Positions 12,624 to 30,856 of a stretch of 36,312 nucleotides of DNA are shown here, one piece after another. Position 1 is the first letter of the stretch. Each line of letters opens with the position of its first letter. The notes beneath the pieces are model-generated. The model was given only the letters and a program-made list of their open reading frames with translations. It did not search any database and was not told the DNA's origin. Source of the stretch: Longimicrobium sp. (lineage in GTDB: Bacteria > Gemmatimonadota > Gemmatimonadetes > Longimicrobiales > Longimicrobiaceae); assembly GCF_035474595.1 (NCBI RefSeq), contig NZ_DATIND010000007.1, forward strand, positions 1-36,312. The letters are read 5' to 3'. Both the position numbers and the translations under genes were made by a program.

Positions 12624-12873
12624 GACGTCATCCTGAGGCCGGCCAAACCGTTGCCGGGGCATGCATTAGTGCCTGCAGGCCGAAGGATCCATAGCCGGTC
12701 CAGCAGGTCAGCATGGGAATCGCCGCGAGTGCCCCACCCTGCTCCTTCGAAACAACTCCGTCCTGAATTTCGGCGCGAATCTCGAAATCACGTGCTCGAA
12801 CAGTATGGATCCTTCGGCCTGCAACGTTCAGTGCAAGTGCAGGTTACCGTGTGGCCGGCCTCAGGATGACGTC
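12624..12873. repeat. Composite inverted CATCCTGAG element 2
   Basis: Left unit 12624-12693 (GACGTCATCCTGAGGCCGGC to CGAAGGATCCATA) and inverted right unit 12804-12873 share both ends but not their middles. The spacer is 110 nt, the longest of the set. It lies after the monooxygenase stop codon. Confidence 0.8.
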
Positions 12874-13030: not shown

Positions 13031-13621
13031 CTACTCCTTGGCCCCCTGCGGCTGCTCCCAGTGCAGCTCCCACTCGCAGAAGGCGTCGCCCTCGACGGCG
13101 CAGCGGACGTGGCGGACGGCCGGGCGCACGCCGCCGGCCAGCTCGGTCGCGCGCAGCAGCCCGCCCGTCTGGCGGCGGCAGAACACGGGGTCGCCGGGAA
13201 AGCCGACCAGGCGCAGCACCGCGCGGCCGGGCTCCGCCTCCACCACCTCCATGTTGCCGGGCTGGTAATAGAGACGGAAGAGGGAGACGGGCTGCACCAG
13301 GAACTCCAGCGGGTCCTTCTTGCGCAGGATGCCGCCGTACAGCTCCACGCCCATCGACTGGATGGAGTACGCGCCGGACTTCTCCGGCCACCCCTGGTCG
13401 CGCCGCCCGATCTCCGCCTCCACCGCGTCCCACAGCGCGCGCAGCAGCTCGATCGGCACCTCGCCCGTGGCCGGGGCGGCTTCCACGCGGCGGCGCTCGT
13501 CCTCGCCCAGGCGCGCCAGGACGGCGGCGGCCGCGCCGGCGCCGTGCTCGGCCTCGACGTAGCGCAGGGTGGAGCGGAGGGTGGATCCCTTCGCGTGCGG
13601 CGCGGCCAGGACGGCGCTCAT
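13031..13621 (-). CDS. V4R/heme-NO-binding-like small protein
   Basis: A 196-aa soluble protein. The C-terminal half ends 'HVRC-AVEGDAFCEWELHW' (Cys174, Cys182). The pattern C-x3-G-D-x-x-C-x-(W/F)-x, after a segment 'GGLLRATELAGG', resembles V4R domains, heme-NO-binding-associated proteins and the myxobacterial TIGR02265 (DUF2378) group. V4R domains bind small hydrophobic or aromatic ligands, and the two Cys may bind metal. The N-terminal half is helical and charged. The start codon overlaps the ligase stop by 4 nt (ATGA at 13621-13618), so the two proteins are translationally coupled. That suggests this protein senses or carries the ligase's substrate or product, which is inference. Family assignment is moderate. 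Confidence 0.7.
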   Translation of the reverse strand: MSAVLAAPHAKGSTLRSTLRYVEAEHGAGAAAAVLARLGEDERRRVEAAPATGEVPIELLRALWDAVEAEIGRRDQGWPEKSGAYSIQSMGVELYGGILRKKDPLEFLVQPVSLFRLYYQPGNMEVVEAEPGRAVLRLVGFPGDPVFCRRQTGGLLRATELAGGVRPAVRHVRCAVEGDAFCEWELHWEQPQGAKE

Positions 13622-15132: not shown

Positions 15133-15293
15133 CGTGTTCGTACCGGTTCGTGCGCTTCCGATTCATCCATGGTCAATCGCATTCCGCGGCGGCGGTGGGG
15201 GCGCTTCGCGCCGGGGGAGAACTCATCGCGGGCGCATCTGCGGCGCGCGCAGGAAGCCTCTTCACTTCCCCGCATTCCTCCGCTCCACCCGAT

Positions 15294-15473
15294 GACGTCA
15301 TCCTGAGGCCGACCACACCATCAGCGCGGAATTCACGATCCTGTGCAGGCCGAAGGATCTATAACTTCGGCCGCACGTCCGCCGGGTGACGTGCATCGAC
15401 TGGCTATGGATCCTTCGGCCTGCCGTCATCCTGCCGGACGCGCGTTCGGCGTGGCCGGCCTCAGGATGACGTC
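15294..15473. repeat. Composite inverted CATCCTGAG element 3
   Basis: Units 15294-15363 and 15405-15473 (inverted) flank a 41-nt spacer reading ACTTCGGCCGCACGTCCGCC and further. The spacer is homologous to that of element 4 at 16827-17000, so the whole 180 bp behaves as one repeat. Confidence 0.85.
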
Positions 15474-15505
15474 TCTTTTGCGCCTGCGCTGGCCACGCAC
15501 CGGGA

Positions 15506-15553
15506 AGTCCGCGAAGGCGGACTGTGTGCCGTTGTAGCCGCGACTTCAGTCGC
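15506..15553 (-). repeat. Double-hairpin element, copy B
   Basis: On the minus strand: GCGACT-GA-AGTCGC, linker GGCTACAACGGCACAC, AGTCCGC-CTTC-GCGGACT. It lies 32 nt after composite element 3 and 26 nt beyond the stop of the minus-strand esterase gene. Confidence 0.85.
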
Positions 15554-15579
15554 ATTTTTACACACGACTCGCATCCTCC

Positions 15580-16563
15580 TCACCGCGAATGGGCGAGGAG
15601 GAAGTCGAGGATGAGGCGCGAGGCGTCGGGTCCCCGGGCGTCGGTGTACGTGCCCTCGGGCGAGCCGCCGGACCAGGCGTGGCCCAGGCCGTCCACGATC
15701 ACCAGCTCGATGGCGGGCTTCCCGTCGGCGCCGCTCCAGCGCGTGCGCTCCACGCCCAGGCCGCCCTCCGTCGAGCGCTGGACGGGGGATGAGGAGACGC
15801 CGAGCACGCCCGCCCACTGCCCCGCCAGCTGCCGCGAGTTCATCGGCGACACCACTGCGTCGGCGCCGCCGTGGATGGCGATGAGCGGCATGGCGCGTCC
15901 GCCGAGCGCGTCCTGCAGCGCGTACGCGAGGATGGCCGGGTCCGGGCTCCCGCCGCGCATCACGGCCAGCGCGTGCGGCACGTCCGAGGCTGCGCGATAC
16001 GGGATGCCGGAGTGCGAGCCGATAGCCGCGAAGAGGTCGGGGTAGCTGGCCGCCACGTTCACCGCCATCGCCGCGCCGGCGGAGACGCCGACGATGTAGA
16101 CACGGCGCGGGTCGATCGCATGCCCTGCCATCACCTCGCGCGTGATCCCGGCGATGACGGCGGGCTCGCCGCGCGACGCCGCCTGGTGCGCGGGGTCGAA
16201 CCAGCTCCAGCACTTCTGCACCTGCATGGCCGCCGGCTGCTCCGGCCAGGCGACCAGCACCCCGGCCTCGCCCGCCAGCGCGTTGAAGCGCGTTCCCCGC
16301 GCGAAGTCGTCGGGGTCCTGCGTGCAGCCGTGCAGCATCACCACCAGCGGCGCGGCGCGCGCGGCGTCGTGACCGGCGGGGACGAAGAGCCGGTAGCGCC
16401 GCGACCCCGCATCTCCCGACCAGGTGTGCCACTCGAAGGTGCCGGCGGCGCGCGCGTCTCCGGCGGGCTGCTGCGCGGCGGCGTCGGGGGCGGTGCTGGT
16501 CATGGTCACGGCTGCCAGGGTGGTGATGAGTGCGCGGTGGATCGTCATCCCCAAGATCTTCAT
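15580..16563 (-). CDS. Secreted PHB-depolymerase-type esterase 1
   Basis: About 327 aa with a signal peptide (MKILGMTIHRALITTLAAVT..., mature after AAAQ). It is an alpha/beta hydrolase: oxyanion region M-L-H-G-C-T-Q-D (about 76-83), nucleophile in G-V-S-A-G (Ser161), acid in 'HGGADAVV' and His in 'GLGHAWSGGSPEGTYTD'. This matches the extracellular type-1 catalytic domain of short-chain-length polyhydroxyalkanoate depolymerases and related feruloyl/acetyl-xylan esterases. No substrate-binding domain is attached, so the polymer is uncertain. The start may be ATG 16563, ATG 16548, or TTG 16569. A 16-bp tandem repeat lies just upstream (16600-16670). A paralogue lies 0.5 kb upstream on the same strand. 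Confidence 0.9.
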   Translation of the reverse strand: MKILGMTIHRALITTLAAVTMTSTAPDAAAQQPAGDARAAGTFEWHTWSGDAGSRRYRLFVPAGHDAARAAPLVVMLHGCTQDPDDFARGTRFNALAGEAGVLVAWPEQPAAMQVQKCWSWFDPAHQAASRGEPAVIAGITREVMAGHAIDPRRVYIVGVSAGAAMAVNVAASYPDLFAAIGSHSGIPYRAASDVPHALAVMRGGSPDPAILAYALQDALGGRAMPLIAIHGGADAVVSPMNSRQLAGQWAGVLGVSSSPVQRSTEGGLGVERTRWSGADGKPAIELVIVDGLGHAWSGGSPEGTYTDARGPDASRLILDFLLAHSR

Positions 16564-16599
16564 CCCCAAATCTGTGCGAGGATCGTACGTCGATCGAAA

Positions 16600-16670
16600 A
16601 TCGCGAAAGATCGTGATCGCGAAAGGTCGTGGTTCGCGAAGGTCGTGATCGCGAAAGGTCGTGGTTCGCG
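16600..16670 (-). repeat. 16-bp tandem repeat upstream of esterase 1
   Basis: Four units in exact 16-bp register (16600, 16616, 16632, 16648) and a partial fifth. Three are ATCGCGAAAGRTCGTG and the third is GTTCGCGAAGGTCGTG. They lie 37-107 nt upstream of the esterase start, the position of a promoter or operator. Confidence 0.8.
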
Positions 16671-16675
16671 AAAAT

Positions 16676-16733
16676 GCGACTGAAGTCGCGGCTACAACGG
16701 CACGCAGTCCGCCTTCGCGGCGCCTTCGCGGAC
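16676..16733 (+). repeat. Double-hairpin element, copy C with a duplicated second loop
   Basis: GCGACT-GA-AGTCGC, linker GGCTACAACGGCACGC, then AGTCC with GCCTTCGCG present twice before GGAC. The 11-nt duplication looks like a slippage event within hairpin 2. Confidence 0.8.
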
Positions 16734-16826
16734 ATCATTTCTGTGCGGGGACGGGCGACGGTGCGAACATTGAAACCCCGTCCATGAGGAGCAATCGCGT
16801 GGACACCACTGCGGTTCTCCCCCATA

Positions 16827-17000
16827 GACGTCATCCTGAGGCCGGCCACACCGCCGTCGCGGCATCCACGGTCATTTGCAGGCCGAAGGATCTATAACTT
16901 CCGCCGCACGTCCGCCGGTTCACGCTCATCGACCGGATCCTTCGGCCTGCCGTCATCCTCGCCGCCGCAATTTCTGCGTGGCCGGCCTCAGGATGACGTC
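16827..17000. repeat. Composite inverted CATCCTGAG element 4
   Basis: Units 16827-16896 and 16934-17000 (inverted) flank a 37-nt spacer homologous to that of element 3. The whole is bracketed by inverted double-hairpin copies C and D. Confidence 0.85.
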
Positions 17001-17021
17001 TTTCCTGCTCACCTCGTGACC

Positions 17022-17069
17022 AGTCCGCGGAGGCGGACTGTGTGCTGTTGTAGCCGCCACTTCAGTGGC
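17022..17069 (-). repeat. Double-hairpin element, copy D
   Basis: On the minus strand: GCCACT-GA-AGTGGC, linker GGCTACAACAGCACAC, AGTCCGC-CTCC-GCGGACT. The first stem carries a G-to-C and C-to-G pair exchange relative to copies B and C, that is, compensatory change. It lies 30 nt after the esterase 2 stop. Confidence 0.85.
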
Positions 17070-17099
17070 ATCTTCCGCCCCCACCCTGCCCCGAATCCC

Positions 17100-18128
17100 C
17101 TAGAACCCGAAGAAGTCCACGATGATCTGGCTGGCGTCCGGGGCGCAGGCATCGGTGTAGGTGCCGGCGCTGCTGCCGCCGGGCCAGCGGTGGTCCATCC
17201 CGCTGATCACGTAGCGGCGGACCACGGTCTGGCCGTTCGCGCTGTTGTTGTAGTCGTAGCGCGTGTACGCGCGGCACGCCGTGCCCGTCACCGTGGCGTC
17301 GGCCGTGTAGTCGACGTTGCCGTTGTCGCTGCCGTCGGCCAGGTCGTTGGTCTGCGTCCACTGCTGCGTGGTCTGCGCGGCGTTCACCGGGTTCACCGTG
17401 CCGTCCGCGGTGCCGTGGAATACCAGCGTGGGGATCACCCGCTTCCCGCCCGTCGCCTGCCGCGTGGAGCAGTCCGTCCCCATCGCGTTGGGGTCGTAGA
17501 TGCTGCCGAACAGCATCGCGTTCGTCCCGCCGCTGGACGTCGTCGCCGCGCCGTACTGCACGCCCGCGACCTCGGCCAGCTTCCGCACCCGGTCCGGGTA
17601 GGTGCACGCCATGATCGTCGCCATCGCGGCGCCGGCGCTGAAGCCGGCCACGCCCACGCGGTTCGAGTCGATGGCGTAGTGGGCCTTCACCCAGTCGATC
17701 ATCCCCGCGATCACGCTGGGCTCGCCGGAGCCGCGCACCTGGTTGGAGGTGTAGAACCAGTTCCAGCAGTCGCCGGGGTTGTACGCCGTCCCCTGCTCGG
17801 GGTAGAGGACGATGAAGTTGCGGCTCTCGGCGAACGAGTTCATCCGCGTCCCCGCCGCGAAGTCGTAGCCGTCCTGCAGGCACCCGTGCAGCATCACCAT
17901 CATCGGCCGCGCCGTCCCCGTGTACGTGGAGGGGATGTAGACGCGGTAGAAGCGCGCGCCGTAGATGCTGCTGAAGGTGCCGTCGATCCACGTCCCCGTG
18001 GCCGCCGCCATGATCGCGGGCTTCGGCGGAACGGGCAGGTCCTCGGGGAGCTCGTCGGCGGAGCAGGCGCCCAGCGCAAGCATGGCAACGGTCGATAGCA
18101 GGACTGCGGCGGTGCGGGTGCGGCGCAT
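17100..18128 (-). CDS. PHB-depolymerase-type esterase 2, lipoprotein
   Basis: A 342-aa paralogue of esterase 1. The N-terminus is a lipoprotein signal, L-A-L-G-A-C with Cys22. It has the oxyanion region M-L-H-G-C-L-Q-D (79-86), nucleophile in G-F-S-A-G (Ser164), acid in 'HGTADGTVN', and His in 'GMDHRWPGGSSAGTYTDA'. Extra Cys residues (CWNW, MACTY, DCSTR, TACRAY, DACA) suggest disulfides in the periplasm or on the cell surface. The ATG at 18128 is preferred over an upstream in-frame ATG because GGAGGAG lies 8 nt before it and the lipobox follows. The gene is downstream of the TonB receptor on the same strand. Likely role: a surface-held esterase releasing short hydroxyacids or acyl groups; substrate unproven. 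Confidence 0.9.
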   Translation of the reverse strand: MRRTRTAAVLLSTVAMLALGACSADELPEDLPVPPKPAIMAAATGTWIDGTFSSIYGARFYRVYIPSTYTGTARPMMVMLHGCLQDGYDFAAGTRMNSFAESRNFIVLYPEQGTAYNPGDCWNWFYTSNQVRGSGEPSVIAGMIDWVKAHYAIDSNRVGVAGFSAGAAMATIMACTYPDRVRKLAEVAGVQYGAATTSSGGTNAMLFGSIYDPNAMGTDCSTRQATGGKRVIPTLVFHGTADGTVNPVNAAQTTQQWTQTNDLADGSDNGNVDYTADATVTGTACRAYTRYDYNNSANGQTVVRRYVISGMDHRWPGGSSAGTYTDACAPDASQIIVDFFGF

Positions 18129-18188
18129 GGACGGCTCCTCCGGACGGGTTTCGGGCGCGAACTCCGGGAGCACTGCAACCACAGGAAA

Positions 18189-18268
18189 GTGCGGAAGCGC
18201 GTGAGTGCGGGAGTGCGCTGGACTCGAGCGAATCCAGCGCACTTCCGCACTTCCGCACTCACGCACTC
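18189..18268 (-). repeat. Inverted pair of octamer arrays (AGTGCGNN) after the TonB receptor gene
   Basis: On the minus strand an array starting CGAGTGCGTGAGTGCGG begins directly after the TGA (18272-18270). An inverted array ends at 18189, and between them lies the 11-bp stem 18212-18222/18233-18243. Together they form one long stem-loop in the receptor's 3' region. Confidence 0.8.
18212..18243 (-). terminator. Core hairpin between the octamer arrays
   Basis: AGTGCGCTGGA (18212-18222) and TCCAGCGCACT (18233-18243) form a perfect 11-bp stem with a 10-nt loop. The arms continue imperfectly into the octamer arrays. It probably ends or stabilises the receptor transcript. Confidence 0.6.
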
Positions 18269-18269
18269 G

Positions 18270-20729
18270 TCACCTCGTATCCACCCGCACGCCCAGGAAC
18301 ACCATCGTGCCGATCGCCGGCATGTTGATCATCTCGGTGTGCTTCACGCCGAAGCCGCACGACGCGCCCTCGTCCGGCAGGCTGACGTCGTTCGCGCGGC
18401 AGTTGAACAGGTTGGCGACCGCCAGGTTCAGCTGCGAGTGGAACTGCGGCAGCCGGTACCCCACGTTCACGTCCAGCGTGTTGAAGGTGGGGATGTGGCC
18501 CTTGTTGATCCCCGAGTTGAAGCGGTAGCCGTTCACGTAGCGGAAGGTGGCCCCGCCGTTCCAGCGGCCCAGGTCGCGCGCGTGCACGCCCAGCGTGAAC
18601 TTGCTGGTGGGCGAGTTCAGCGCGGTGGCCTCGCGGTCGGTGGCCAGGTTGGTGTTGATGCCGGTGATGCGGTCCAGCTTCAGCAGCGACACCGTGCCGG
18701 TGAAGTCCACCCTGGGGCTCAGGATGTACCCCAGCGAGGCGTCGGTGCCGTAGATGGTGGCGTTGCCCAGGTTGAAGTAGGTGAGCACCACCTGCGGCTG
18801 GCTGGTCTCGCTCACGAACGGCTGGTTGTCGGCGTTGTTGTACGCCACGGTGGCTGCGCCGCCCGTGGCGTACGGGTTGGCGATGGTCACCAGCGGGCTC
18901 AGGAAGTTCTGGTAGCGCGAGTAGTACCCGGCCACGTCCACGAACAGCCGCCCGTTGATGAGCCCCTTGTAGCCCGCCTCCCAGGTGGTGTTGCGCTCGG
19001 GAACCAGCGGGTTGTACACGCGCACCACCGAGTTGTCCGACGCCTTGCGCACGGTGATGCCGTCACGGTTGCCGAACACCCCGAACACGCTGACGAAGTT
19101 GGGGATCCAGAAGTTGGTCTGCAGGGTGCTGGGGCTCTTGAACGCGCGGTTGTAGAAGAGCCGGAAGGTGTGTCCCTGCACCGGGGTGAAGAGCAGGCCG
19201 GCCTTGGGCGAGAACTGCGGGTCGTAGTTCTCGTGGTCGTCGTAGCGCGCGGCCAGCAGCAGGCGCAGCTGGGGCAGCAGCGGCGTCTCGGTCTGCGCGT
19301 ACACGCCCCACTGGTCGATCTTCAGGTCCTCGCCGGTCAGGCGGTCGGTCAGCCACTGGCGGTCGCTGCTCACGATGTCGTGGCGATACTGGCCGCCCCA
19401 GGTGACCTGCGTGTTCAGCAGCGGCAGGACGCGGAAGTTGTTCTGCACCTCGGCCGCGTACAGCTGCCCGTCGCTGGGCCAGTCGCTCATCCGCCGCACC
19501 GAGTCGTCGCTGATGGTGCCGGGGGTGGCGGCGCGGTTGGTGGTGTAGCGGTTGGCCGCGTAGCTGTCGCCGGCGTTGCTCTCGGTGCGGTAGGCGCTGG
19601 CGTACCAGTGCGGGTTGGTGGCCCGCAGCTGGATCACGTTGTACGTCCAGTCCACCAGCTGGTTGCGCCCCACGTTGGTCTGGCCCACGCCGTTGGTGCG
19701 GCTGTAGCCGCCCGTCAGCGACAGCTGCGCGTCGCCCGCGTAGCGGATCAGCTGGCCGTAGCCGCGCAGCACGTTGCTGTTCCAGTCCAGCCCCGACGTG
19801 TCACCGACCGAGGTCTCCCACACGCCGGTGGCGCCCGACGAGTGGATGCGGTTGCTCCAGTCGTTGAACGAGTTCCACTCGCCCGACAGCTTGTATCCCC
19901 AGTTCCCCCGCGCCCCGGCCACGCGCCCCTGCAGGTCGTAGTACGAGCGGTTGGCGCCGGTCACCTCGAAGCTCATGCCGGGATAGTCGCGCGGGTCCTT
20001 GCTCTGCAGCGTCAGCACGCCGTTGGACGCGTCGGCGCCGTACAGCGCGCTGCCGGGGCCCACCACCACCTCGATGCCCGAGAGGTCGATCTTGGGGATG
20101 GGGGTGAACGAGCCCACCGGCAGCCCGTTCTCGGGAAGCACGCCGATGCGGCCGTCCTCCAGCATGAGCATGCGGTTGTTGAACGACGAGTTGAAGCCGC
20201 GCGCGTTCACCGCCACGCTGGTCATCCCCACCTGCACGAAGTCCAGCCCGGTGGCCTGCTTCAGCGCGCCCACGAAGGCGTTCCCCGGCGTCTCGGCCAG
20301 CTGCTCGGCGCTCACGCGGGTGATGGTGGCGGGGCTCTCGGAGCGGCGCTCGGCGCGGCGGCTGGCCGACACCACCATGGCGTCCAGCTCCACGTTGTTC
20401 TCTTCGAGGCGGACGGAGACGAGCGTCTCCTCGCCCGGGCGCACGGTGACGTCGCTGTTGTGCGCCACGAAGCCGGGCATGGAAACGCGCAGCCGGTGCA
20501 CGCCCTGCGGCACGCCGCCCAGGGTGAACTGGCCCAGCGTGTTGGCCACGGTGCTGAAGCGGGTGCCGGTGATGCTGACCTGCGCCGCCGAGACGGCGCG
20601 GCCGTCCGGCCCGGAAACGGTGCCGCGGATGGTGCCGGTCTGCGCGGCCGCGAACGCCGGCAGGAGCGCCAGGACCGCCGCCAGCAGGAGTGCGCGCCAG
20701 GCCTGGCGCAGGGTGCCGCTGCTGCTCAT
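18270..20729 (-). CDS. TonB-dependent outer-membrane receptor
   Basis: About 819 aa. It has a signal peptide (1-30, WRALLLAAVLALLPAFAAAQ), then a carboxypeptidase-regulatory-like beta-sandwich (about 32-115: G-T-I-R-G-T-V-S-G-P-D-G-R). A plug domain follows (about 120-235: PATITRVSAEQL, 'VQVGMTSVAVNARGFNSS', 'EVVVGPGSALYGADASNGVLTL'), then a long beta-barrel of alternating aromatic strands. These receptors import ligands across the outer membrane using TonB energy. The fused N-terminal domain is typical of soil and Bacteroidota-like receptors. The C-terminus ends VRVDTR, without the usual terminal aromatic. The start at 20729 is chosen for GGAG 9 nt upstream; 20744 lacks one. It is upstream of esterase 2, suggesting import of esterase products; inference only. 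Confidence 0.93.
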   Translation of the reverse strand: MSSSGTLRQAWRALLLAAVLALLPAFAAAQTGTIRGTVSGPDGRAVSAAQVSITGTRFSTVANTLGQFTLGGVPQGVHRLRVSMPGFVAHNSDVTVRPGEETLVSVRLEENNVELDAMVVSASRRAERRSESPATITRVSAEQLAETPGNAFVGALKQATGLDFVQVGMTSVAVNARGFNSSFNNRMLMLEDGRIGVLPENGLPVGSFTPIPKIDLSGIEVVVGPGSALYGADASNGVLTLQSKDPRDYPGMSFEVTGANRSYYDLQGRVAGARGNWGYKLSGEWNSFNDWSNRIHSSGATGVWETSVGDTSGLDWNSNVLRGYGQLIRYAGDAQLSLTGGYSRTNGVGQTNVGRNQLVDWTYNVIQLRATNPHWYASAYRTESNAGDSYAANRYTTNRAATPGTISDDSVRRMSDWPSDGQLYAAEVQNNFRVLPLLNTQVTWGGQYRHDIVSSDRQWLTDRLTGEDLKIDQWGVYAQTETPLLPQLRLLLAARYDDHENYDPQFSPKAGLLFTPVQGHTFRLFYNRAFKSPSTLQTNFWIPNFVSVFGVFGNRDGITVRKASDNSVVRVYNPLVPERNTTWEAGYKGLINGRLFVDVAGYYSRYQNFLSPLVTIANPYATGGAATVAYNNADNQPFVSETSQPQVVLTYFNLGNATIYGTDASLGYILSPRVDFTGTVSLLKLDRITGINTNLATDREATALNSPTSKFTLGVHARDLGRWNGGATFRYVNGYRFNSGINKGHIPTFNTLDVNVGYRLPQFHSQLNLAVANLFNCRANDVSLPDEGASCGFGVKHTEMINMPAIGTMVFLGVRVDTR

Positions 20730-20799
20730 GGAAGGAGTCTCCATGTTGGGGACACGGTGTGCGACGCGGTCGCGTGCGCACGGGTTGGACTTCAACTAC

Positions 20800-20860
20800 G
20801 AGTGCCGAGTGCTGAGTGCTGAGTGCTGAGTCCTAAGTCCTAAGTCCTAAGTCCTAAGTG
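20800..20860 (+). repeat. Heptamer array changing from GAGTGCT to AAGTCCT
   Basis: In continuous 7-nt register: GAGTGCC, three GAGTGCT, one hybrid GAGTCCT, three AAGTCCT, then AAGTG. The hybrid unit shows the two heptamer types are one family. It lies 22 nt beyond the MaoC stop codon, in the opposite orientation to the stop-abutting arrays. Confidence 0.85.
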
Positions 20861-20881
20861 AACTCAGCTTGGGACCGGCTT

Positions 20882-21361
20882 TCAGCTCGCTCCGACTGCT
20901 GCCGGCTCGCGGTCCACCATCTCCGGTTGGGAGATGGGGATCGGGGAGGCGCGGGGTTCGGGGAGCATCACCATCGCCTCGCCGTCGATCACCGTTTCGC
21001 CGCGGTGGTTGATGACGGTGGTGGCGAGGCGAACGCGGCGTTTCGGGGCGATGACCTCGGCCACCTCGACGCGGGCCGTCACCGTGTCGCCGATGCGGAC
21101 CGGGCGGACGAAGCGCAGGTTCTGCGAGAGGTAGATGGTGCCCGGGCCGGGAAGCCGCATCGCCAGCACGGTGCTGATGAAGCCGGCCGACAGCATCCCG
21201 TGCGCGATCCGCCCGCCGAACATCCCGGCGTCCGCCTCCACGGCGTTCACGTGCGCGGGGTTGAAGTCGCCCGTGATGCCGGCGTACAGCACCACGTCGG
21301 TCTCCGTCACCGTCTTCGCGAACTCGGCCGTCTGCCCGACGGCGATCTCTTCCAGGCGCAT
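20882..21361 (-). CDS. MaoC-like (R)-specific enoyl-CoA hydratase
   Basis: A 159-aa hot-dog-fold protein. It has the hydratase-2 signature Y-A-G-I-T-G-D-F-N-P-A-H-V-N (Asp32, His37 as catalytic pair), then 'GRIAHGMLSAGF' and 'LRFVRPVRIGDTV', as in PhaJ and other MaoC dehydratases. These hydrate trans-2-enoyl-CoA to (R)-3-hydroxyacyl-CoA, or dehydrate the reverse way, linking fatty-acid oxidation and polyhydroxyalkanoate metabolism. The start at 21361 begins the conserved fold; a longer frame reaches into repeat sequence. It is downstream of the SSS/acyl-CoA ligase/KAS III operon on the same strand but separated by 224 nt of repeats. It is bracketed by inverted heptamer arrays. PhaJ role is inferred; no PHA synthase is in the window. 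Confidence 0.9.
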   Translation of the reverse strand: MRLEEIAVGQTAEFAKTVTETDVVLYAGITGDFNPAHVNAVEADAGMFGGRIAHGMLSAGFISTVLAMRLPGPGTIYLSQNLRFVRPVRIGDTVTARVEVAEVIAPKRRVRLATTVINHRGETVIDGEAMVMLPEPRASPIPISQPEMVDREPAAVGAS

Positions 21362-21437
21362 CCGCTGCTCGCTCAAAATCGTTCGTTCGTCCGAGAGCCG
21401 GGCGAATCCGCCCGCTCGCTTCCTCCTGGCCGAAGGT

Positions 21438-21480
21438 GCCACTGAAGTGGCGGCTACAACGGCACACAGTCCTTCGGACT
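21438..21480 (+). repeat. Double-hairpin element, copy E with short second stem
   Basis: GCCACT-GA-AGTGGC, linker GGCTACAACGGCACAC, AGTCC-TTC-GGACT. The second hairpin is shortened symmetrically and closes with CTTCGG, the very stable UUCG-type tetraloop context if transcribed. It lies about 75 nt upstream of the MaoC start. Confidence 0.85.
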
Positions 21481-21524
21481 TCAACTCCGTGCCTGCCTTC
21501 CCATCATCCGGATCCCAATCTTTT

Positions 21525-21584
21525 ACTTGGGACTTAGGACTCAGGACTCAGGACTTCTTTTCTCGCCCTTCAGCACTCAGCACT
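21525..21584 (-). repeat. Heptamer arrays after the symporter stop codon
   Basis: On the minus strand AAAGTGCTGAGTGCTG follows the TGA (21588-21586) directly, then after a 14-nt gap AAGTCCTGAGTCCTGAGTCC. It is the inverted counterpart of 20800-20860 in the same nested order, with maoC between them. Confidence 0.8.
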
Positions 21585-21585
21585 T

Positions 21586-23076
21586 TCACACGCTCATCAC
21601 CAGCCGCACGTCCGGATCGATCTGCGCCGCGGCGCGGGTGCGGGTGAGCCAGCTGACCGCGAAGAAGACGAGGATCGACAGAACCAGCGACAGCCCGCTC
21701 ACCGTCACCCCGGCCGGGAAGCTGTAGACCTTGAAGTAGGCCAGCGTCTCGAACGACAGCGTCACCGCCAGCCCGGTGGCGATCGAGGCCAGCGCGCCCT
21801 CCTTCGTCGCCCCCTCCCAGTTCAGCCCGATGGCCAGCGCGGGAACCAGCGTGCAGGCGAACAATCCCCATCCGAAGATCCCCAGGAAGGCCACCATCGA
21901 CCCCGAGAACTGGGCCAGCACCGCGGCCGCCACGGCCAGCACGGCGGTGGAGATGCGGCCCCACTTCAGCTCGTTGCGCGGCGTGCGGCCCAGGGCCAGC
22001 GGCAGGTCGTGCGTGACCACCGCCGCGGCGATGTTGATGAACGAGTTCACCGCGCTCATGGTCGCCGCCGCCACGCCGGAGAAGACGAGCGCCGCCAGGA
22101 TGACCGGGGTGAAGCGCAGCAGGAACGTGGGCGTGGCCGTGTCCGGCGCCGTGAGCGGGGCCAGCGCGCCGCGGGCGACCAGCGACTTCACGCCGACTCC
22201 GACGCCGAAGTAGAGGAGGAGGACCAGGATCAGCCCCAGCGTCTTCAGCAGCGGGTACCAGCGCAGCTGCAGCGGGTCCTTCAGCATGTAGTACTTGTGC
22301 ACGCCCTGCGGCTGGCCCAGCGAGCCCAGCCCGAACACCAGGAAGAACGACAGCGCGGCCAGCGGCGCCGCCTTCCCCCACGGCGACAGGAACCCCGGGT
22401 CGTGCGCCAGGATGTGGGTGCTGATGCCGCCCAGCCCGCCGCCCACCTTCAGCACCGCCAGGAACACGAGGACCGACGCGGCCGCCATCAGCGTCCCCTG
22501 GAAGACGTCCACGTAGATCCCCGCCAGGATCCCGCCCGCCACCGAGTACGCCAGCGTCACCCCCATCCCGATCCAGATCCCCCACGCGATCCCCACCCCG
22601 AAGATGGCGTCGATCACCACGCCCATCGCCAGCGCGTTGGTGGCCATGTAGCCGATGATCCCGATCAGGATCGCGACGCCGCTCAGCCCCTGCGCCGCGG
22701 GCGAGCGGTAGCGCGCGCCGATGGCGTCGGGCACCGTCATCAGGCCGCGCGCCTCGCCCAGCAGGCGCATCCGCTTGGCCAGCACCCACGCGCCCATCAC
22801 GTTGGTCACCGACGCGGGAAGGACGATGTACATCGCCGCCAGCCCGATGCTGTAGATCAGCCCCGGCCCGCCGATGAACGCGAACCCCGAGACGGAAGTG
22901 GAGACCGAGGCGACCGTCAGCGCGACCAGGCCGATCCCGTGGCCGGCGACGAAGAAGTCGCTCGCGGTCTTCGTGCGGCGCGTGGCCCACACGCTGATCA
23001 TCACCACGATCGCGAAGTACGCGGCGGCCACGGCCACGATGGCCGGATGCGCCACGTGCGGCAGCGCCCCGCTCAT
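21586..23076 (-). CDS. Sodium:solute symporter (SSS family)
   Basis: A 496-aa polytopic membrane protein with about 13 hydrophobic helices in the LeuT/SSS arrangement. Conserved SSS features: 'ASDFFVAGHGIG' after helix 1, 'ASVSTSVSGFAFIGGPG' (sodium-site region), 'AYSVAGGILAGIYVDVFQG' and 'VFSGVAAATMSAVNSFINIAAAVVTHD'. Members import sugars, amino acids, acetate or other carboxylates with Na+. The neighbouring acyl-CoA ligase suggests a carboxylate, which is inference. Its ATG overlaps the stop of the upstream membrane-protein gene by 4 nt (23076-23073), so it is translationally coupled. A heptamer array follows the stop directly. Confidence 0.93.
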   Translation of the reverse strand: MSGALPHVAHPAIVAVAAAYFAIVVMISVWATRRTKTASDFFVAGHGIGLVALTVASVSTSVSGFAFIGGPGLIYSIGLAAMYIVLPASVTNVMGAWVLAKRMRLLGEARGLMTVPDAIGARYRSPAAQGLSGVAILIGIIGYMATNALAMGVVIDAIFGVGIAWGIWIGMGVTLAYSVAGGILAGIYVDVFQGTLMAAASVLVFLAVLKVGGGLGGISTHILAHDPGFLSPWGKAAPLAALSFFLVFGLGSLGQPQGVHKYYMLKDPLQLRWYPLLKTLGLILVLLLYFGVGVGVKSLVARGALAPLTAPDTATPTFLLRFTPVILAALVFSGVAAATMSAVNSFINIAAAVVTHDLPLALGRTPRNELKWGRISTAVLAVAAAVLAQFSGSMVAFLGIFGWGLFACTLVPALAIGLNWEGATKEGALASIATGLAVTLSFETLAYFKVYSFPAGVTVSGLSLVLSILVFFAVSWLTRTRAAAQIDPDVRLVMSV

Positions 23077-23612
23077 CCGCGCACCGCCGGGATCGCGGGC
23101 ACCGGCTCGTCGCGCAGGGTGTCGTGCAACCTCGGCTTCGCGTCAGGGGCGGGAGATGGAGATGCCTTCGCCCGCGCCCATTCCTCGCCGGCGCGGCGGA
23201 CGCGCTCCAGGTCGTCCGCGTTCAGCGTCTGCTCGCTGAAGGTCAGCGCGTAGGCGATGGGAAGGACGACGATGGGGAGGATGCCGATGCCGTAGATGAC
23301 GATGGCCGCGCGCAGCGGAAGCCCGCCGTACAGCGGCGACGCCGCCCGCTCGTCCGCCGGGAGGGCCAGGGCGAGCGCGAACCCGGTCGCCAGCACCAGC
23401 CCCGAGAAGGCGAAGGGGAGCGCCAGCTTTCCGACGCGCCCGTTGCGCGCGGCGCCCAGCACCATGATGGCCACCAGCGCGGCGGGCATCCCCAGCGCCA
23501 TGGGCCAGGGCGCCCACTTGGGCGCGCCGCCGGGAAGGAAGGCCGACGCGTACGCCGCCAGGATGGCGAGCGCCGCGAGAACCAGGGTGCCGAGGGCCAG
23601 CCGTTTCGTCAT
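23073..23612 (-). CDS. Four-helix membrane protein of unknown function
   Basis: A 179-aa protein with four hydrophobic segments (about 5-26, 36-54, 64-84, 101-123) and a hydrophilic C-terminal tail of about 55 residues rich in charged residues and Pro (about 125-179: EQTLNADDLERVRRAGEEWARAK). I recognise no family. It is not DUF485 or DUF4212, the small partners of some SSS transporters, which are shorter with two helices. It overlaps the ligase gene upstream and the symporter gene downstream by 4 nt each (ATGA at 23612-23609 and 23076-23073). It may therefore be a subunit or regulator of the symporter; that is inferred from context only. Confidence 0.8.
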   Translation of the reverse strand: MTKRLALGTLVLAALAILAAYASAFLPGGAPKWAPWPMALGMPAALVAIMVLGAARNGRVGKLALPFAFSGLVLATGFALALALPADERAASPLYGGLPLRAAIVIYGIGILPIVVLPIAYALTFSEQTLNADDLERVRRAGEEWARAKASPSPAPDAKPRLHDTLRDEPVPAIPAVRG

Positions 23613-25420
23613 CCTGCGCTCTGGTAGAGGGCGTCCAGCTCGCCGCGGAACTTCTCGGCGACCACGGTGCGGCGGAGCTTCAGCGTGGGCGTCAGGTCGC
23701 CGTCCTCGGCGGTCAGCTCGCGGCCGATGACCACGAAGCGTCGGATGCGCTCGGTGCGGCTGAGGCCGGCGTTCACGCGGTCCACCGCGGCCTGCACCCG
23801 CGTCAGCAGCTCGGGGTCGCGCAGCACGCCGTCGCCATCGCCATTCCCGTGGCTGCCGTCCGCCTGGTCGTTCGCGCCTGCCCAGCGCCGCAGCATCGAC
23901 GGGCGCAGCGAGATGAGGGCGGAGATGAACTTCTGCCCCTCGCCGTACAGCATGGCCTGCCCGATCCACGGATCCTGCGCCAGCGCGGCCTCGATGGGGA
24001 GCGGCGCCACCTTCTTCCCCGTGCTGAGCGCGATCAGCTCCTTCTTCCGCCCCGTCACGCGCAGCGCGCCGTCGTCCAGCAGCTCGCCCAGGTCGCCGGT
24101 CAGCAGCCACCCGTCCTGCGTGAACGCCTCCTCGCTGGCGCGCGGGCGGCCGTGGTAGCGGGAGAAGGAGAGCTCGCCGCGGCGCACCAGGATCTCGCCG
24201 TCCTCGGCCACGCGGATCTCCGTCCCCGGCATGGCCTGCCCCGCGGCGTCGAAGCGGTAGGCGTCGGGGCGGTTCATCGCCACGCACAGGTGCTCGGTCA
24301 GCCCGTACGCGCCGAGGACAGTGATCCCCAGCGCGTCCAGGTACTCGGCCACCTCGCGCGGGAGCGCCGCGCCGCCGCTGGTGGCCCGGCGGATGCGCCC
24401 GCCGAAGAGCGTGCGCGCGCGCTCGAACAGCGGCGCCCCCAGCTCGCGCCACTCCTGCTCCAGCGTGGGCGGCACGAAGGCGCGCGCCTGCACCAGCCGC
24501 GACCGCGTCACCCCGAGCTGGACCACGCGGTCCCACCGCGCGCGCCCCTCGCCCGCCGACGCCGTGTGCTCGGCGTGCAGCGCCTCGTATGCCTTCTCGT
24601 AGAAGCGCGGCAGCCCGCCGAAGAGCGTGGGCGCGTAGACGCGGGCCGCCTCCCACACCCGCGTGTGGTCCGGCACCAGCGCCGCCTCCATCCCGCAGGC
24701 GATGCGCGTGTACAGGCCAAAGACGCGCTCGGCGGCGTGGCAGAAGGGGAGGAAGGAGAGGGTCGTGTCGCGCTCCGTCAGCCCCAGCGCCTCCACGATC
24801 GACGCGGCGGACGCGAGGAGGTTGCGGTGCGAGAGCTCCGCCCCCTTCGGCTCGCCCGTCGACCCGGAGGTGTAGATCAGGACCGCCGTGTCGCCGGGAG
24901 ATGCGGATGCCACGCGGCGGTCGATCTCCGCGCCCGCCCCGGCCGCCAGCGCCTCGCCCCCGCGCTCCAGCCACGCATCCCATCCGATGACGCCCTCCGC
25001 GAACGCGTCCACGGCGACGAGGGTGCGGAGATGCGGGAGGTCGTCGCGCGCGGCCAGCGCCTTCGCCAGCTGCTCCGCGTCGTCGACGACCAGGGCGCGC
25101 GCGGCGCAGTCGGCCAGGATCTGCCGCACCTGCGCGGGCGCGCTGGTGGGATAGATCCCCACGCTGACGCCGCCGGCCAGCAGCACGCCCAGGTCGGCCA
25201 CCGGCCAGAGCGTCCCCGTCCCCGCGAGGATGGCGACGGACTCGCCCGGCTTTACCCCGTCCGCCACCAGCGCCGCGGCGAAGCGGCGGGCGTCGGCGGC
25301 CCACGCGCCCCACGTCATCGCCGCGTCGCGCGGGGCGCCGCCGGCCGCGAGCGCGCGGTAGGCGGCGCGGCCGGGGTGGCGCGCGGCGCGGTCCAGGAAG
25401 GCGCGGGCGGCGGTCGTCAT
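23609..25420 (-). CDS. Long-chain acyl-CoA ligase (FadD15/FACS-like AMP-binding protein)
   Basis: A 603-aa adenylate-forming enzyme of the large acyl-CoA synthetase branch. Motifs: Y-T-S-G-S-T-G-E-P-K-G-A (P-loop), 'SFLPFCHAAERVFG', 'GAYGLTEH', 'WLLTGDLGELLDDGALRVTGRKKELIALSTGKKVAPLPIE' and the C-terminal 'LTPTLKLRRTVV' with catalytic Lys. The 'GRKKELI-STGKKV-P' region is typical of FACS enzymes acting on long-chain acids. A Gly/Asp/Asn-rich insert (about 508-525, ANDQADGSHGNGDGDGV) near the C-terminus is unusual. The ATG at 25420 overlaps the KAS III-like stop by 4 nt, and its stop overlaps the membrane-protein start. Expected to activate a fatty acid delivered to or by its neighbours; exact substrate unknown. 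Confidence 0.93.
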   Translation of the reverse strand: MTTAARAFLDRAARHPGRAAYRALAAGGAPRDAAMTWGAWAADARRFAAALVADGVKPGESVAILAGTGTLWPVADLGVLLAGGVSVGIYPTSAPAQVRQILADCAARALVVDDAEQLAKALAARDDLPHLRTLVAVDAFAEGVIGWDAWLERGGEALAAGAGAEIDRRVASASPGDTAVLIYTSGSTGEPKGAELSHRNLLASAASIVEALGLTERDTTLSFLPFCHAAERVFGLYTRIACGMEAALVPDHTRVWEAARVYAPTLFGGLPRFYEKAYEALHAEHTASAGEGRARWDRVVQLGVTRSRLVQARAFVPPTLEQEWRELGAPLFERARTLFGGRIRRATSGGAALPREVAEYLDALGITVLGAYGLTEHLCVAMNRPDAYRFDAAGQAMPGTEIRVAEDGEILVRRGELSFSRYHGRPRASEEAFTQDGWLLTGDLGELLDDGALRVTGRKKELIALSTGKKVAPLPIEAALAQDPWIGQAMLYGEGQKFISALISLRPSMLRRWAGANDQADGSHGNGDGDGVLRDPELLTRVQAAVDRVNAGLSRTERIRRFVVIGRELTAEDGDLTPTLKLRRTVVAEKFRGELDALYQSAG

Positions 25421-26427
25421 CGCGCGCTCCGCACCGGGTTCCAGCGCAGTGCCACGCATCCCATCGACAGCCCCGCCCCCGAGCCGGTCAGCAGCACCAG
25501 GTCGCCCGGATGGAGCCGGCCCGCCTTCGCGGCGTCGTCCATCGCCATCGGCAGGCAGGCGGAGCCGGTGTATCCCCACTTCTCCATCACCGTGTGCGCC
25601 TTCGACATCGGCACGCCCAGGCGGTCCATCACCATCTCGATGGTCGAGCGGTTCACCTGCGTCCACAGCCACAGGTCCACGTCCTCCACCGTCTTCCCGA
25701 TGCGGCCCAGGACGGAGCGCGCGATGCGCGGCCACCCCTCCTCGTTGACTTCCTTGGGATACTTCGTGACGAAACGCAGGCGGTTGCGGACGCCGTCGTT
25801 CAGCACGTCCACGGTGATGGGCTCCGCGGTGCCGCCGGCGAACACGCCCATCCCCGGCGCCAGCGACCCGTCGGCGTACAGTTCGCTCGCGAGGATGCCG
25901 GGCTCGTCGCTGAGCTCCACCATCACCGCGCCCGCGCCGTCCGCGAAGATCGTCACCGTCTTCTTGTCGGTGGGATCGAGATACTTCGACATCGCGTAGA
26001 CGGCCACGACCAGCACGCGCTGGTAGCGCTCGTCCGCGCGAACGTACTTCCACGCGGCGTCCAGCGCGGTCGCGAAGCCGGCGCAGGCGCTGTTCACGTC
26101 GAAGGTCCCCGCCGTATTCCGCATCCCCAGACGGCCGTGGAGGACGGACGAGGTCGCGGGCGACACGTACTCGGGCGTGTCGGTGGAGACGATGAGGAGG
26201 TCGACGTCCCCGGCCGACAGCCCGGCGTCGGCCAGCGCGGCGCGGGCGGCCTGCTCGGCCAGGTCGGCGGTGGACTCGCCCGGCGCGCACCACCGCCGCT
26301 CGCGGATCCCCAGCGTCGCCGACACGAACGCGTCGATGTCCTCGCCCAGCGCGGCCGACAGCTCCGCGTTGGCGACGACGCGCGCGGGGACGAAGGAGCC
26401 GGTGGCGGTGATGGTTGCGTTGCGCAC
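25417..26427 (-). CDS. KAS III-like (FabH-family) ketoacyl synthase with substituted active site
   Basis: A 336-aa thiolase-fold protein. The nucleophile region is intact: V-N-S-A-C115-A-G-F. Where FabH has the catalytic His in 'PHQAN', this protein has L-W-T256-Q-V-N. Where FabH has Asn in 'GNTSAAS', it has W-G-Y286-T-G-S-A-C. So the Cys-His-Asn triad is reduced to Cys. The flanking sequence is well conserved, and I recall 'KWGYTGSAC' in other KAS III-like proteins, so it is likely a real subfamily. It may act as an acyl transferase, a Claisen-type enzyme with another base, or a non-condensing homologue. The start is GTG at 26427 with an octamer array directly upstream and no Shine-Dalgarno sequence. 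First gene of the overlapping operon. Confidence 0.9.
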   Translation of the reverse strand: MRNATITATGSFVPARVVANAELSAALGEDIDAFVSATLGIRERRWCAPGESTADLAEQAARAALADAGLSAGDVDLLIVSTDTPEYVSPATSSVLHGRLGMRNTAGTFDVNSACAGFATALDAAWKYVRADERYQRVLVVAVYAMSKYLDPTDKKTVTIFADGAGAVMVELSDEPGILASELYADGSLAPGMGVFAGGTAEPITVDVLNDGVRNRLRFVTKYPKEVNEEGWPRIARSVLGRIGKTVEDVDLWLWTQVNRSTIEMVMDRLGVPMSKAHTVMEKWGYTGSACLPMAMDDAAKAGRLHPGDLVLLTGSGAGLSMGCVALRWNPVRSAR

Positions 26428-26428
26428 G

Positions 26429-26464
26429 GTGCGAGAGTGCGAAGGTGCGAGAGTGCGAAAGTGG
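26429..26464 (+). repeat. Octamer array (GTGCGANN) abutting the KAS III-like start codon
   Basis: Units GTGCGAGA, GTGCGAAG, GTGCGAGA, GTGCGAAA occupy the place where a ribosome-binding site is expected, 1 nt from the GTG start (26427-26425). Confidence 0.75.
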
Positions 26465-26477
26465 AAAACCAGAACTG

Positions 26478-26538
26478 AAGTCCTAAGTCCTAAGTCCTAA
26501 GTCCTGAGTCCTGAGTCCTGAGTCCTGAGTCCTGAGTG
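26478..26538 (+). repeat. Heptamer array, four AAGTCCT then four GAGTCCT
   Basis: A continuous 7-nt register from 26478, changing from AAGTCCT to GAGTCCT halfway and ending GAGTG. It lies 21 nt beyond the LacI-family stop codon, in inverse orientation to the stop-abutting arrays, and 50 nt upstream of the KAS III-like start. Confidence 0.85.
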
Positions 26539-26558
26539 GATCGGGGCGTCCCTGTCCC

Positions 26559-27575
26559 CTATTCCCTCGGCTCCGCCGTGGTGCCGCGCCGGACCAGCTT
26601 CACCGGCAGCGGCTTCGTCGGCTTCACCGAGACCTCCTGGCCGTCCAGCTGGCGGAGGAGGAGGCGCGCGGCGCGGGCGCCCAGCTCGCGGGCGGGGATG
26701 GCGACGGTGGTCAGCTCGGGGGTGACGAAGCTCGCCATCTCCACGTCGTCGCACCCCACGATCGACATCTCGCCGGGGACTGCGACCTTCGCCGTCAGCG
26801 CCGCCTTCAGCGCCCCCATCGCGATCAGGTCGTTGGCGCAGAAGACGCCGGTCGGGCGCTCGCGGGCCGCCAGCAGGCTCTTCATCGCCTTCTGCCCCCC
26901 GCTTACCGTGGGCGGCGTGCGGCGCAGCCACTCGTGCGGAAGCGCGATCCCCGCCTCGCGCAGCGCCTGGAAGAAGCCGCGCTCGCGCATCCGGAAGCCG
27001 TGCACGTCGGTCGCGGGGCCGATGAAGGCGAGTTTGCGATGGCCGAGGGAGATCAGGTGCTCCGCCGCCATCCGCCCCGCCGCCAGCGCGTCGCTCGCCA
27101 CTCCCGGCCAGCGCTCCGACGGCTCGTCGACCACCACCACCTTCAGGTCGCTCAGCGCGTCGTGCGGCAGGCTGGCCGCGCCCACCCCGTCGATGATCAC
27201 GCCGTCCACCTGCCGCGCCCGCAGCGCCTCCAGGTGCCGGATCGGCGTGCTCTCGCGCGTGTCGCCGGGCAGGACCGCGTATCCCGCTTCCGAAGCGACG
27301 CGCTGCGCGCCGGTGACCACGTCCAGGTAGAACGGGTTCGTCAGGTCCGGCACCACCACGCCGATCGCGTACGACCGCCCGCGCACCAGCCCGCGCGCCA
27401 GGATGTTGGGGCGGTACCCCAGCGCCTCGGCGGCCTCCATCACCCGCTCGCGCGTCGCCGCGGCCACGCGCGCCCGCGGGTTGCCGCTGAGCACCAGCGA
27501 CACCGTGGCCTGCGAAACCCCCGCCTTCCGGGCGACGTCGTGGGTCGTGACGGGTCGGGGCTGGCTGTTCGGCAT
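26559..27575 (-). CDS. LacI family transcriptional regulator
   Basis: A 338-aa repressor-type protein. The helix-turn-helix is at about 10-32 (T-H-D-V-A-R-K-A-G-V-S-Q-A-T-V-S-L-V-L), followed by the hinge helix 'RVMEAAEALGYRPNILARGLV' and a type-I periplasmic-binding-like effector domain (from about 68, YAIGVVVPDLTNPFY) ending 'ELTTVAIPARELGARAARLLLRQLDG'. LacI regulators usually sense sugars or related small molecules. The ATG at 27575 lacks a Shine-Dalgarno sequence. Its promoter is overlapped by two operator-like palindromes (27592-27631), which predicts autorepression. It lies just upstream, on the same strand, of the KAS III/ligase/symporter operon, so it may control that as well; inference. 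Confidence 0.92.
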   Translation of the reverse strand: MPNSQPRPVTTHDVARKAGVSQATVSLVLSGNPRARVAAATRERVMEAAEALGYRPNILARGLVRGRSYAIGVVVPDLTNPFYLDVVTGAQRVASEAGYAVLPGDTRESTPIRHLEALRARQVDGVIIDGVGAASLPHDALSDLKVVVVDEPSERWPGVASDALAAGRMAAEHLISLGHRKLAFIGPATDVHGFRMRERGFFQALREAGIALPHEWLRRTPPTVSGGQKAMKSLLAARERPTGVFCANDLIAMGALKAALTAKVAVPGEMSIVGCDDVEMASFVTPELTTVAIPARELGARAARLLLRQLDGQEVSVKPTKPLPVKLVRRGTTAEPRE

Positions 27576-27591
27576 GCGGGGCAGGCGGGGT

Positions 27592-27631
27592 GATTTGCTA
27601 ATGCGTATTAGCTAATACGTATTGGCAAATC
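27592..27631. promoter_or_regulatory. Two overlapping LacI-type operators in a 40-bp palindrome
   Basis: GCTAATGCGTATTAGC (27597-27612) and GCTAATACGTATTGGC (27611-27626) share GC at their junction. Each has the GCTAAT...ATTRGC arms with a central CG, the usual LacI-family operator form. The whole 40 bp is a near palindrome with 18 of 20 arm positions matching, starting 17 nt upstream of the lacI ATG. Confidence 0.8.
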
Positions 27632-29135: not shown

Positions 29136-29649
29136 GTGGGAATTCTCCGAACTGCTTGGGTGGGTGGGTCGCCGCGGACATCGCGGCGCACCAACCTCTA
29201 AACATTTGTTTCCAGACGCAACATGCTGCCGCTCGCTGGGACAAACTTCTACATGGCAGGCCCGCACCCGCACGCGTAATCCTCAATCTGACAATCACCT
29301 GCGCATGACAAAACGCACAGAAAGACGTCATCCTGAGACCGGCCACACCGTCCTTGCCTCGAACGATCGATTGCAGGCCGAAGGATCTATAAGCGAGGTC
29401 GCACGTGCGCTCGCCGGGCGCACGACCGGCCTCAGGATTCGGTATAACTGCCGTACAGGAAGGAAGATGGAAATGGATTTCACACGTAGGGAACGTAGGG
29501 ATGGAAACCGACGTCCGCGTTGTTTGCGGCCCCTGTCGCCGATGCTGGCCGCTCGTCGTCGCTCTCGGAGGGTAGACCGATCCGGATAGGGGCGAGAGTC
29601 GTCAGGAAGGCGGGCTCGAGGACGGCGGCGCGCCCGGGCGATGCGGCCC
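29136..29649. other. Intergenic region with truncated composite repeat
   Basis: No gene is supported. It holds a CATCCTGAG element with a truncated partner (29324-29443). The remaining about 200 nt on each side show no clear signal. Confidence 0.65.
29324..29443. repeat. Composite inverted CATCCTGAG element 5, right unit truncated
   Basis: The left unit 29324-29391 is complete (GACGTCATCCTGAGACCGGC to CGAAGGATCTATA). The spacer resembles those of elements 3 and 4 (GCACGTGCGCTCGCCGGG). The right unit is reduced to GACCGGCCTCAGGATTC near 29423-29440, lacking its inner end. Confidence 0.7.
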
Positions 29650-30752: not shown

Positions 30753-30816
30753 CCGCCCGCGGCGAGCACCGTAGGATGTCCCGCACCAACGCCGCGCGGC
30801 TCACGGATCTTCCGTC

Positions 30817-30856
30817 CGCACTCTCGCACTCCCGCACTCACGCACTCGCGCACTTC
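30817..30856 (+). repeat. Octamer array (CGCACTNN)
   Basis: Five units, CGCACTCT, CGCACTCC, CGCACTCA, CGCACTCG, CGCACTTC, in exact 8-nt register. It lies 118 nt upstream of the SIMPL start and is not next to a stop codon. Confidence 0.8.

Follow-up and report, generated by a model that had tools for sequence, protein, structure and literature searches.

In standard catabolism of poly-3-hydroxybutyrate (PHB), a short-chain polyhydroxyalkanoate (PHA), the polymer is consumed by way of a depolymerase (PhaZ), a 3-hydroxybutyrate (3HB) dehydrogenase, the activation of acetoacetate with CoA and a thiolase. The 36,312-nt stretch of Longimicrobium sp. DNA analysed here (contig NZ_DATIND010000007.1, hereafter the window) contains a conserved locus of ~14.6 kb (13031-27626) that probably serves Longimicrobium-related soil bacteria in the use of external PHB. 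The locus resembles the standard system in its predicted secreted depolymerases, uptake and activation of a C4 acid with CoA. However, it has no dedicated 3HB dehydrogenase; its two acyl-CoA ligases and MaoC-type hydratase suggest that activation comes first and that a crotonyl-CoA route follows. It also adds a KAS III-like protein (KAS1), a small membrane protein (MEM), a TonB-dependent receptor and a LacI-family regulator. Since depolymerases, receptor, ligase and an operator-bearing LacI gene lie in the same locus, the imported carboxylate is most likely 3HB. The identity of the depolymerases, the conserved linkage and the operator are all well supported by sequence.

Predicted depolymerases and layout of the locus

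Two neighbouring genes, estA and estB, encode proteins whose assignment as PHB depolymerases is well supported. EstA and EstB score 286.0 and 309.9 bits against NF050058, the NCBIfam model for extracellular short-chain-length PHA depolymerases of type 1, about twofold over its cut-off of 150, and both also pass TIGR01840. The closest solved structure for both is PDB 8daj, and its catalytic residues in the alignment (Cys40, Ser121, Asp197 and His270) are all kept in EstA. We take 8daj to be the PHB depolymerase of Lihuaxuella thermophila because these residue numbers agree with those published for that enzyme (PMC11893044). The motifs HGC, GVSAG, HGGAD and GLGHAW of EstB equal the catalytic motifs of EstA, as read from the sequence; the two proteins are 38% identical. 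Reading of the N-termini revealed a lipoprotein-like signal (LGAC) in EstA and a signal-peptide-like stretch in EstB. The whole genome holds three matches to PF10503, the strongest two being EstA and EstB. Both therefore share with the Lihuaxuella enzyme a score above the curated cut-off, the four catalytic positions and secretion signals. They differ from it in that two such predicted enzymes are encoded next to each other, within a regulated uptake locus, and in the apparent lipoprotein nature of EstA. The features of the locus are as follows, starting upstream of its first gene.

27597-27626: two overlapping palindromic operators (predicted), GCTAATGCGTATTAGC and GCTAATACGTATTGGC, immediately before the LacI gene
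26559-27575, minus strand: LacI-family regulator, first gene of the locus (Pfam LacI and Peripla_BP_3); directly upstream of KAS in relatives
25417-26427, minus strand: KAS1, KAS III-like protein, GTG start (Pfam ACP_syn_III and ACP_syn_III_C; Cys115, Thr256, Tyr286, Asp83)
23609-25420, minus strand: acyl-CoA ligase (ACS; Pfam AMP-binding and AMP-binding_C_3), FadD11-like, proposed to activate a 3-hydroxyacid
23073-23612, minus strand: MEM, 179-aa membrane protein with four transmembrane (TM) segments and a C-terminal tail, no Pfam or NCBIfam family
21586-23076, minus strand: SSS sodium:solute symporter (SSF; PF00474, E=9e-44), proposed to take up 3HB
20882-21361, minus strand: MaoC-type (R)-specific enoyl-CoA hydratase, PhaJ-like by prediction (PF01575, E=8.5e-26; MaoC part of PRK08190)
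18270-20744, minus strand: TonB-dependent receptor (Pfam CarboxypepD_reg, plug and barrel domains); the domains were assigned on the ORF 18270-20795, and the start at 20744 was read from the sequence
17100-18128, minus strand: EstA, predicted lipoprotein-type secreted PHB depolymerase (NF050058, 286 bits; PF10503; PDB 8daj, E=3.9e-80)
15580-16569, minus strand: EstB, predicted second secreted PHB depolymerase (NF050058, 310 bits; PDB 8daj, E=5.3e-75)
13618-15132, minus strand: ACSx, second acyl-CoA ligase (PF00501 and PF13193)
13031-13621, minus strand: SMALL, 196-aa conserved protein, ATGA overlap with ACSx, same place in relatives

The initial annotation covered 21586-26427, which is the middle part only, and overlooked what follows downstream: two depolymerases, the TonB-dependent receptor and a second ligase, all of which indicate the substrate. 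Its description of the genes themselves was accurate. The KAS III-like, ligase, MEM and SSS genes lie at the coordinates given above, Pfam assigning a family to all but MEM, with the MaoC gene next after the symporter gene; the three 4-nt overlaps (25420-25417, 23612-23609 and 23076-23073) read literally ATGA; and MEM, said to have four helices and no known family, has four TM segments by hydropathy and in an AlphaFold2 model (mean pLDDT 87) and matches neither Pfam nor NCBIfam. The four genes are neighbours in related genomes too, and as the set is kept there the arrangement is not due to chance. The overlaps had been taken to imply strict coupling and stoichiometric production. However, the same junctions span -8 to over +40 nt in relatives, other genes, together up to 2.6 kb, lie between KAS and ligase in some of them, and some loci lack MEM-SSS whilst others lack KAS-ligase. 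Stoichiometric production is rejected because the spacings vary and both gene pairs are separable; the four genes are two modules, KAS-ligase and MEM-SSS, within the predicted PHB locus. As for the proposed function, carboxylate import and trapping as a CoA ester is a logic that the gene neighbourhood backs, whereas condensation in the sense of FabH is unlikely, KAS1 being without the His and Asn required for decarboxylative condensation. A scan for promoters and terminators gave no signal above shuffles.

Between genes, an interspersed repeat whose GTCATCCTGAGGCCGGCCAC ends form inverted pairs was also observed 8 times in the window, where 0 copies were expected (10892-10911, 12627-12646, 12851-12870, 15297-15316, 15451-15470, 16830-16849, 16978-16997 and 29327-29346). 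Several copies flank the depolymerase genes, and it looks like a small repeated palindromic element.

Conservation within and beyond the Gemmatimonadota

A single-sequence search found MEM in 27 of 61 genomes, comprising the genome itself and near relatives. The order in most loci with enough flank is LacI, KAS, ligase, MEM, SSS, MaoC and TonB receptor; in relatives the receptor is followed by a depolymerase, a second ligase and SMALL, with ACSx behind the depolymerase in most. A same-strand depolymerase was present in 30/30 Gemmatimonadota KAS1 loci with a downstream flank of at least 8 to 9.3 kb (~24 distinct loci, six of the 30 being apparently the same contig fetched twice), against 0/33 control neighbourhoods that contain MEM and SSS without KAS, each over 15 kb. 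At the genome level (KAS1 profile E<=1e-80; NF050058 at least 200 bits), KAS1 and NF050058 were each found in 26 of 298 genomes and occurred together in 24 (Fisher p=7e-31, kinship uncorrected). The KAS1 genomes lacking a strong NF050058 match are G012, where the contig ends after MaoC, and G054, where the depolymerase is seemingly split over two contigs. The depolymerase genomes without KAS1 are G145, in which the gene lies on a 5.3-kb contig, and G194, in which the order is LacI, TonB receptor, depolymerase, SMALL, MEM, SSS and MaoC with no KAS. The G194 locus thus shows a link between MEM-SSS and the depolymerase that does not depend on KAS1.

Scanning GTDB genomes with a KAS profile returned 75 loci. 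KAS identity is mostly 68-84% in Gemmatimonadota, 51-62% in Acidobacteriota (Blastocatellia, Pyrinomonadaceae), near 50% in Neomarinimicrobiota, 50% in Minicystis rosea, 45% in Acetothermia and 38-44% in Bacteroidales, Bdellovibrionales and Spirochaetaceae. In Acidobacteriota the neighbours of KAS comprise a TetR regulator, a ligase, MaoC, alpha/beta hydrolases, an MFS transporter and a large TonB-type receptor, and 12 of 30 KAS1 loci there encode a Lipase_2 protein for which PhaZ7, a PHB depolymerase, is the sole close match among solved structures (E=6e-17). In Neomarinimicrobiota, KAS is accompanied by an SSS symporter, a TonB receptor and a Lipase_2 gene of weak similarity. In Bacteroidales and Bdellovibrionales, KAS1 is found with a second KAS III-like protein (KAS2), an SDR, a CoA-transferase of the butyryl-CoA:acetate type, an SSS symporter and hydrolases, the Bdellovibrionales locus having an additional distant EstA homologue (27%); with their SDR and CoA-transferase these loci look closer to standard PHB catabolism. 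That different depolymerases, activators and symporters surround the same KAS argues that KAS1 belongs to PHB/3HB metabolism.

Other loci contain further features of note. A second locus type (L103:335-9825) has a LacI gene with the same operator, a TonB receptor, SMALL, an alpha/beta hydrolase, a ligase, an SDR, MEM and SSS, and is perhaps a sister system for another hydroxyacid. Proteins of 168, 531, 545 and 329 aa without a Pfam family are encoded beside KAS1 in Bacteroidales and Neomarinimicrobiota (L190:12402-14585 and L177:15320-17943) and are candidate outer-membrane or depolymerase components.

KAS1, the uptake proteins and the proposed route

The AlphaFold2 model of KAS1 (pLDDT 94.9) has the KAS III fold and fits the FabH structure 4ryb with a Z of 47.9 and an rmsd of 1.8 over 319 residues. 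KAS1 also keeps the nucleophilic Cys of FabH, Cys115 being invariant in 46 clade members. However, the rest of the Cys-His-Asn catalytic triad is absent: FabH positions His244 and Asn274 are occupied throughout the clade by the invariant Thr256 and Tyr286. KAS1 also scores under the NCBIfam FabH cut-offs (NF006829, 238.4 versus 249 bits; TIGR00747, 215.7 versus 292.1 bits), and the genome encodes a canonical FabH elsewhere which keeps HQAN and GNMSS. A further difference is Asp83, invariant in KAS1, where FabH-like proteins have Ser or Ala. In the alignment this residue falls on the Glu that is catalytic in HMG-CoA synthase; KAS1 further shares with that enzyme the Cys and the YTGS of its GNxYTGS motif. 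Nevertheless, KAS1 is shorter than HMG-CoA synthase and FabH-like overall, the position of the catalytic His is not conserved, and its TIGR01835 score of 53.9 bits is far under the cut-off of 360.35. As judged by these alignments, KAS1 is a distinct non-canonical clade of the KAS III fold.

Going by the known chemistry of these families, decarboxylation of malonyl groups by KAS1 is unlikely, and the enzyme may carry out reversible non-decarboxylative Claisen or acyl-transfer chemistry. We tentatively suggest that KAS1 could be a new type of PHA-catabolism enzyme, with Thr and Tyr for His and Asn and an acidic residue gained, that would perform such chemistry on C4 CoA esters and is conserved beside PHB-depolymerase-like genes in several phyla. 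Its reaction is the least certain part of the proposal. An olefin pathway of the OleA/OleC type was also considered, as KAS1 weakly matches OleA and some loci have two KAS and two ligases; it was rejected because FabH is closer and the Gemmatimonadota locus has no OleB/OleD-like set.

KAS2 is found beside KAS1 in L041, L045, L046, L087, L139, L142, L143, L159 and L190-L193. It keeps the His of FabH in place; its Cys is missing in Gemmatimonadota and retained in Bacteroidales and Bdellovibrionales. The two proteins are reminiscent of an unequal pair of the PqsB/PqsC type, and a KAS1-KAS2 complex is possible in those Gemmatimonadota loci where KAS2 is Cys-less.

SSS symporters with small membrane partners are known from the ActP-YjcH/DUF485 and DUF4212 pairs. 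The symporter of this locus is a clear family member (PF00474, 150.4 bits, cut-off 22.8); its nearest NCBIfam models, PutP and PanF, are both under cut-off and no equivalog model tells its substrate. The MEM family occurs in 90 of 298 genomes of the phylum, and an SSS gene adjoins MEM in all 40 neighbourhoods fetched across it. Its members share the segment GLP...G.G..P....P..YA..F...TL...D and have a variable C-terminal tail. No Pfam or NCBIfam family was matched by 22 MEM members, and membership of a known DUF appears unlikely for want of a profile match: DUF485, DUF4212 and DUF3311 were unmatched at E<=1 in Pfam/NCBIfam, profile-profile comparison not having been made. Fold searches gave matches at noise level for helical proteins (Foldseek best E=0.38; VIA best Z 8.1). 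By these searches MEM appears to be a new family, encoded next to SSS symporters, and the simplest reading is that it is an accessory subunit of the symporter. It resembles the known partners in being encoded immediately beside the symporter. However, with its four TM helices and no match to either of these families, it could be analogous to the known partners and not homologous. With moderate confidence, we infer that the symporter carries 3HB and that MEM is its partner.

The remaining enzymes point to how 3HB might be used. The first ligase resembles the long-chain type (FadD11-like) and ACSx resembles PRK06187 long-chain ligases, whilst the MaoC hydratase (MaoC_dehydratas profile, 90.4 bits, cut-off 27) appears PhaJ-like. 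Ligase and MaoC together suggest conversion of 3HB to 3HB-CoA and then crotonyl-CoA. Interconversion of the latter two is established PhaJ chemistry and would apply here by analogy. No PHA synthase, as judged by PhaC_N, was found in the genome, nor any 3HB dehydrogenase model above cut-off; its owner therefore probably consumes PHB made by others. We propose that secreted EstA and EstB would cut external PHB to 3HB or short oligomers, which the TonB-dependent receptor would carry over the outer membrane, and that the symporter with MEM would import 3HB into the cytoplasm. There, either CoA ligase or both would make (R)-3HB-CoA, and the MaoC hydratase would convert this to crotonyl-CoA for beta-oxidation, so that no 3HB dehydrogenase would be needed in the locus. 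The C4 acyl- or 3-oxoacyl-CoA so formed would be the substrate of KAS1, whose chemistry would be either acyl transfer or non-decarboxylative in the manner of a thiolase or HMG-CoA synthase. SMALL matches nothing in Pfam or NCBIfam; its C-terminal Cys/Trp pattern may resemble that of V4R-type sensor domains.

Several observations weigh against the proposed PHB locus. NF050058 is only a hypoth_equivalog model, and PF10503 includes feruloyl and acetylxylan esterases too. The long-chain-type first ligase is not what a C4 acid predicts. No PhaZ7-like gene lies within the stretch seen of 18/30 Acidobacteriota KAS1 loci. The loci L128/L209, L148, L210, L211 and L212 have KAS and ligase without MEM-SSS, and another uptake route must therefore exist in them. 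Finally, with a canonical FabH and five canonical thiolases in the genome, KAS1 is not trivially needed for those steps. The breadth of PF10503 and the long-chain resemblance of both ligases would suit a locus that degrades some other ester or polyester (feruloyl or acetylated polymers, aliphatic polyesters or longer PHA) and imports an acid other than 3HB. We consider this unlikely, as the NF050058 cut-off is exceeded about twofold, feruloyl and acetylxylan esterase structures match EstA and EstB far more weakly (E about 1e-14 to 1e-16) than the solved PHB depolymerase, the gene that takes their place in Acidobacteriota, though unrelated, again resembles a PHB depolymerase (PhaZ7), and MaoC suits a 3-hydroxyacid.

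Still less probable, to the point of being very doubtful, is a general uptake-activation-condensation operon in which an imported carboxylate is activated and then primes a conventional KAS III for biosynthesis or a fatty acid synthesis shunt. The linkage of KAS, ligase and symporter and the closeness of the KAS1 model to FabH structures agree with this, and shunt-type FabH2 proteins are known. However, the decarboxylation residues His and Asn are replaced in KAS1, a canonical fabH lies elsewhere in the genome, and depolymerases, receptor and regulator share the locus. A narrower question concerns the KAS step alone, where KAS1 could be an acetoacetyl-CoA thiolase or HMG-CoA-synthase-like enzyme that replaces the thiolase step after 3HB oxidation, or alternatively a pure acyl-transferase on 3HB-CoA or oligomers. 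The thiolase-like role is possible though rather doubtful. Asp83 and YTGS speak for it, as does the occurrence of KAS1 in two kinds of locus, ligase-MaoC and SDR/CoA-transferase, which would have acetoacetyl-CoA as their shared intermediate; the five thiolases and the lack of a conserved His equivalent speak against it, the likeness being one of motif alignment only. If use of external PHB is indeed the function, the locus would give a complete, regulated, gene-by-gene PHB route for Gemmatimonadota and relatives, groups that are mostly uncultured, with a candidate 3HB symporter and its new partner protein. It would also implicate a KAS III-like enzyme in bioplastic breakdown, and KAS1 beside a depolymerase would be a practical marker for PHA degraders in metagenomes. 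No KAS-containing PHB locus was found in the open-access literature, which is weak evidence of novelty as subscription papers were mostly outside the search.

Regulation and intergenic repeats

Overlapping palindromes at 27597-27612 and 27611-27626, upstream of LacI, are each one mismatch from GCTAATACGTATTAGC. Two sites of this type occur in the window against 0.01 expected, and no further site with up to 3 mismatches was found anywhere in the 6.57-Mb genome. Many of the relatives tested have this site in front of their LacI gene as well. In L041, L045, L087 and L132 it also precedes the TonB receptor gene, and in L085 it falls at the 5′ end of that gene. Such a pattern would be expected of a LacI-type repressor that controls the whole locus and its own gene. 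We infer contact between LacI and the operator, and LacI would repress the locus via the tandem site at 27597-27626.

Tandem repeats of 7-8 nt units (ACTTAGG, GCACTCA, AGTCCTG, GAGTGCT) were also observed between genes, at 6696-6734, 8849-8895, 20800-20860, 21525-21556, 26479-26537 and 30816-30854. They stand before KAS1, between SSS and MaoC and before the TonB receptor, among other places, and are possible slippage-prone spacers.

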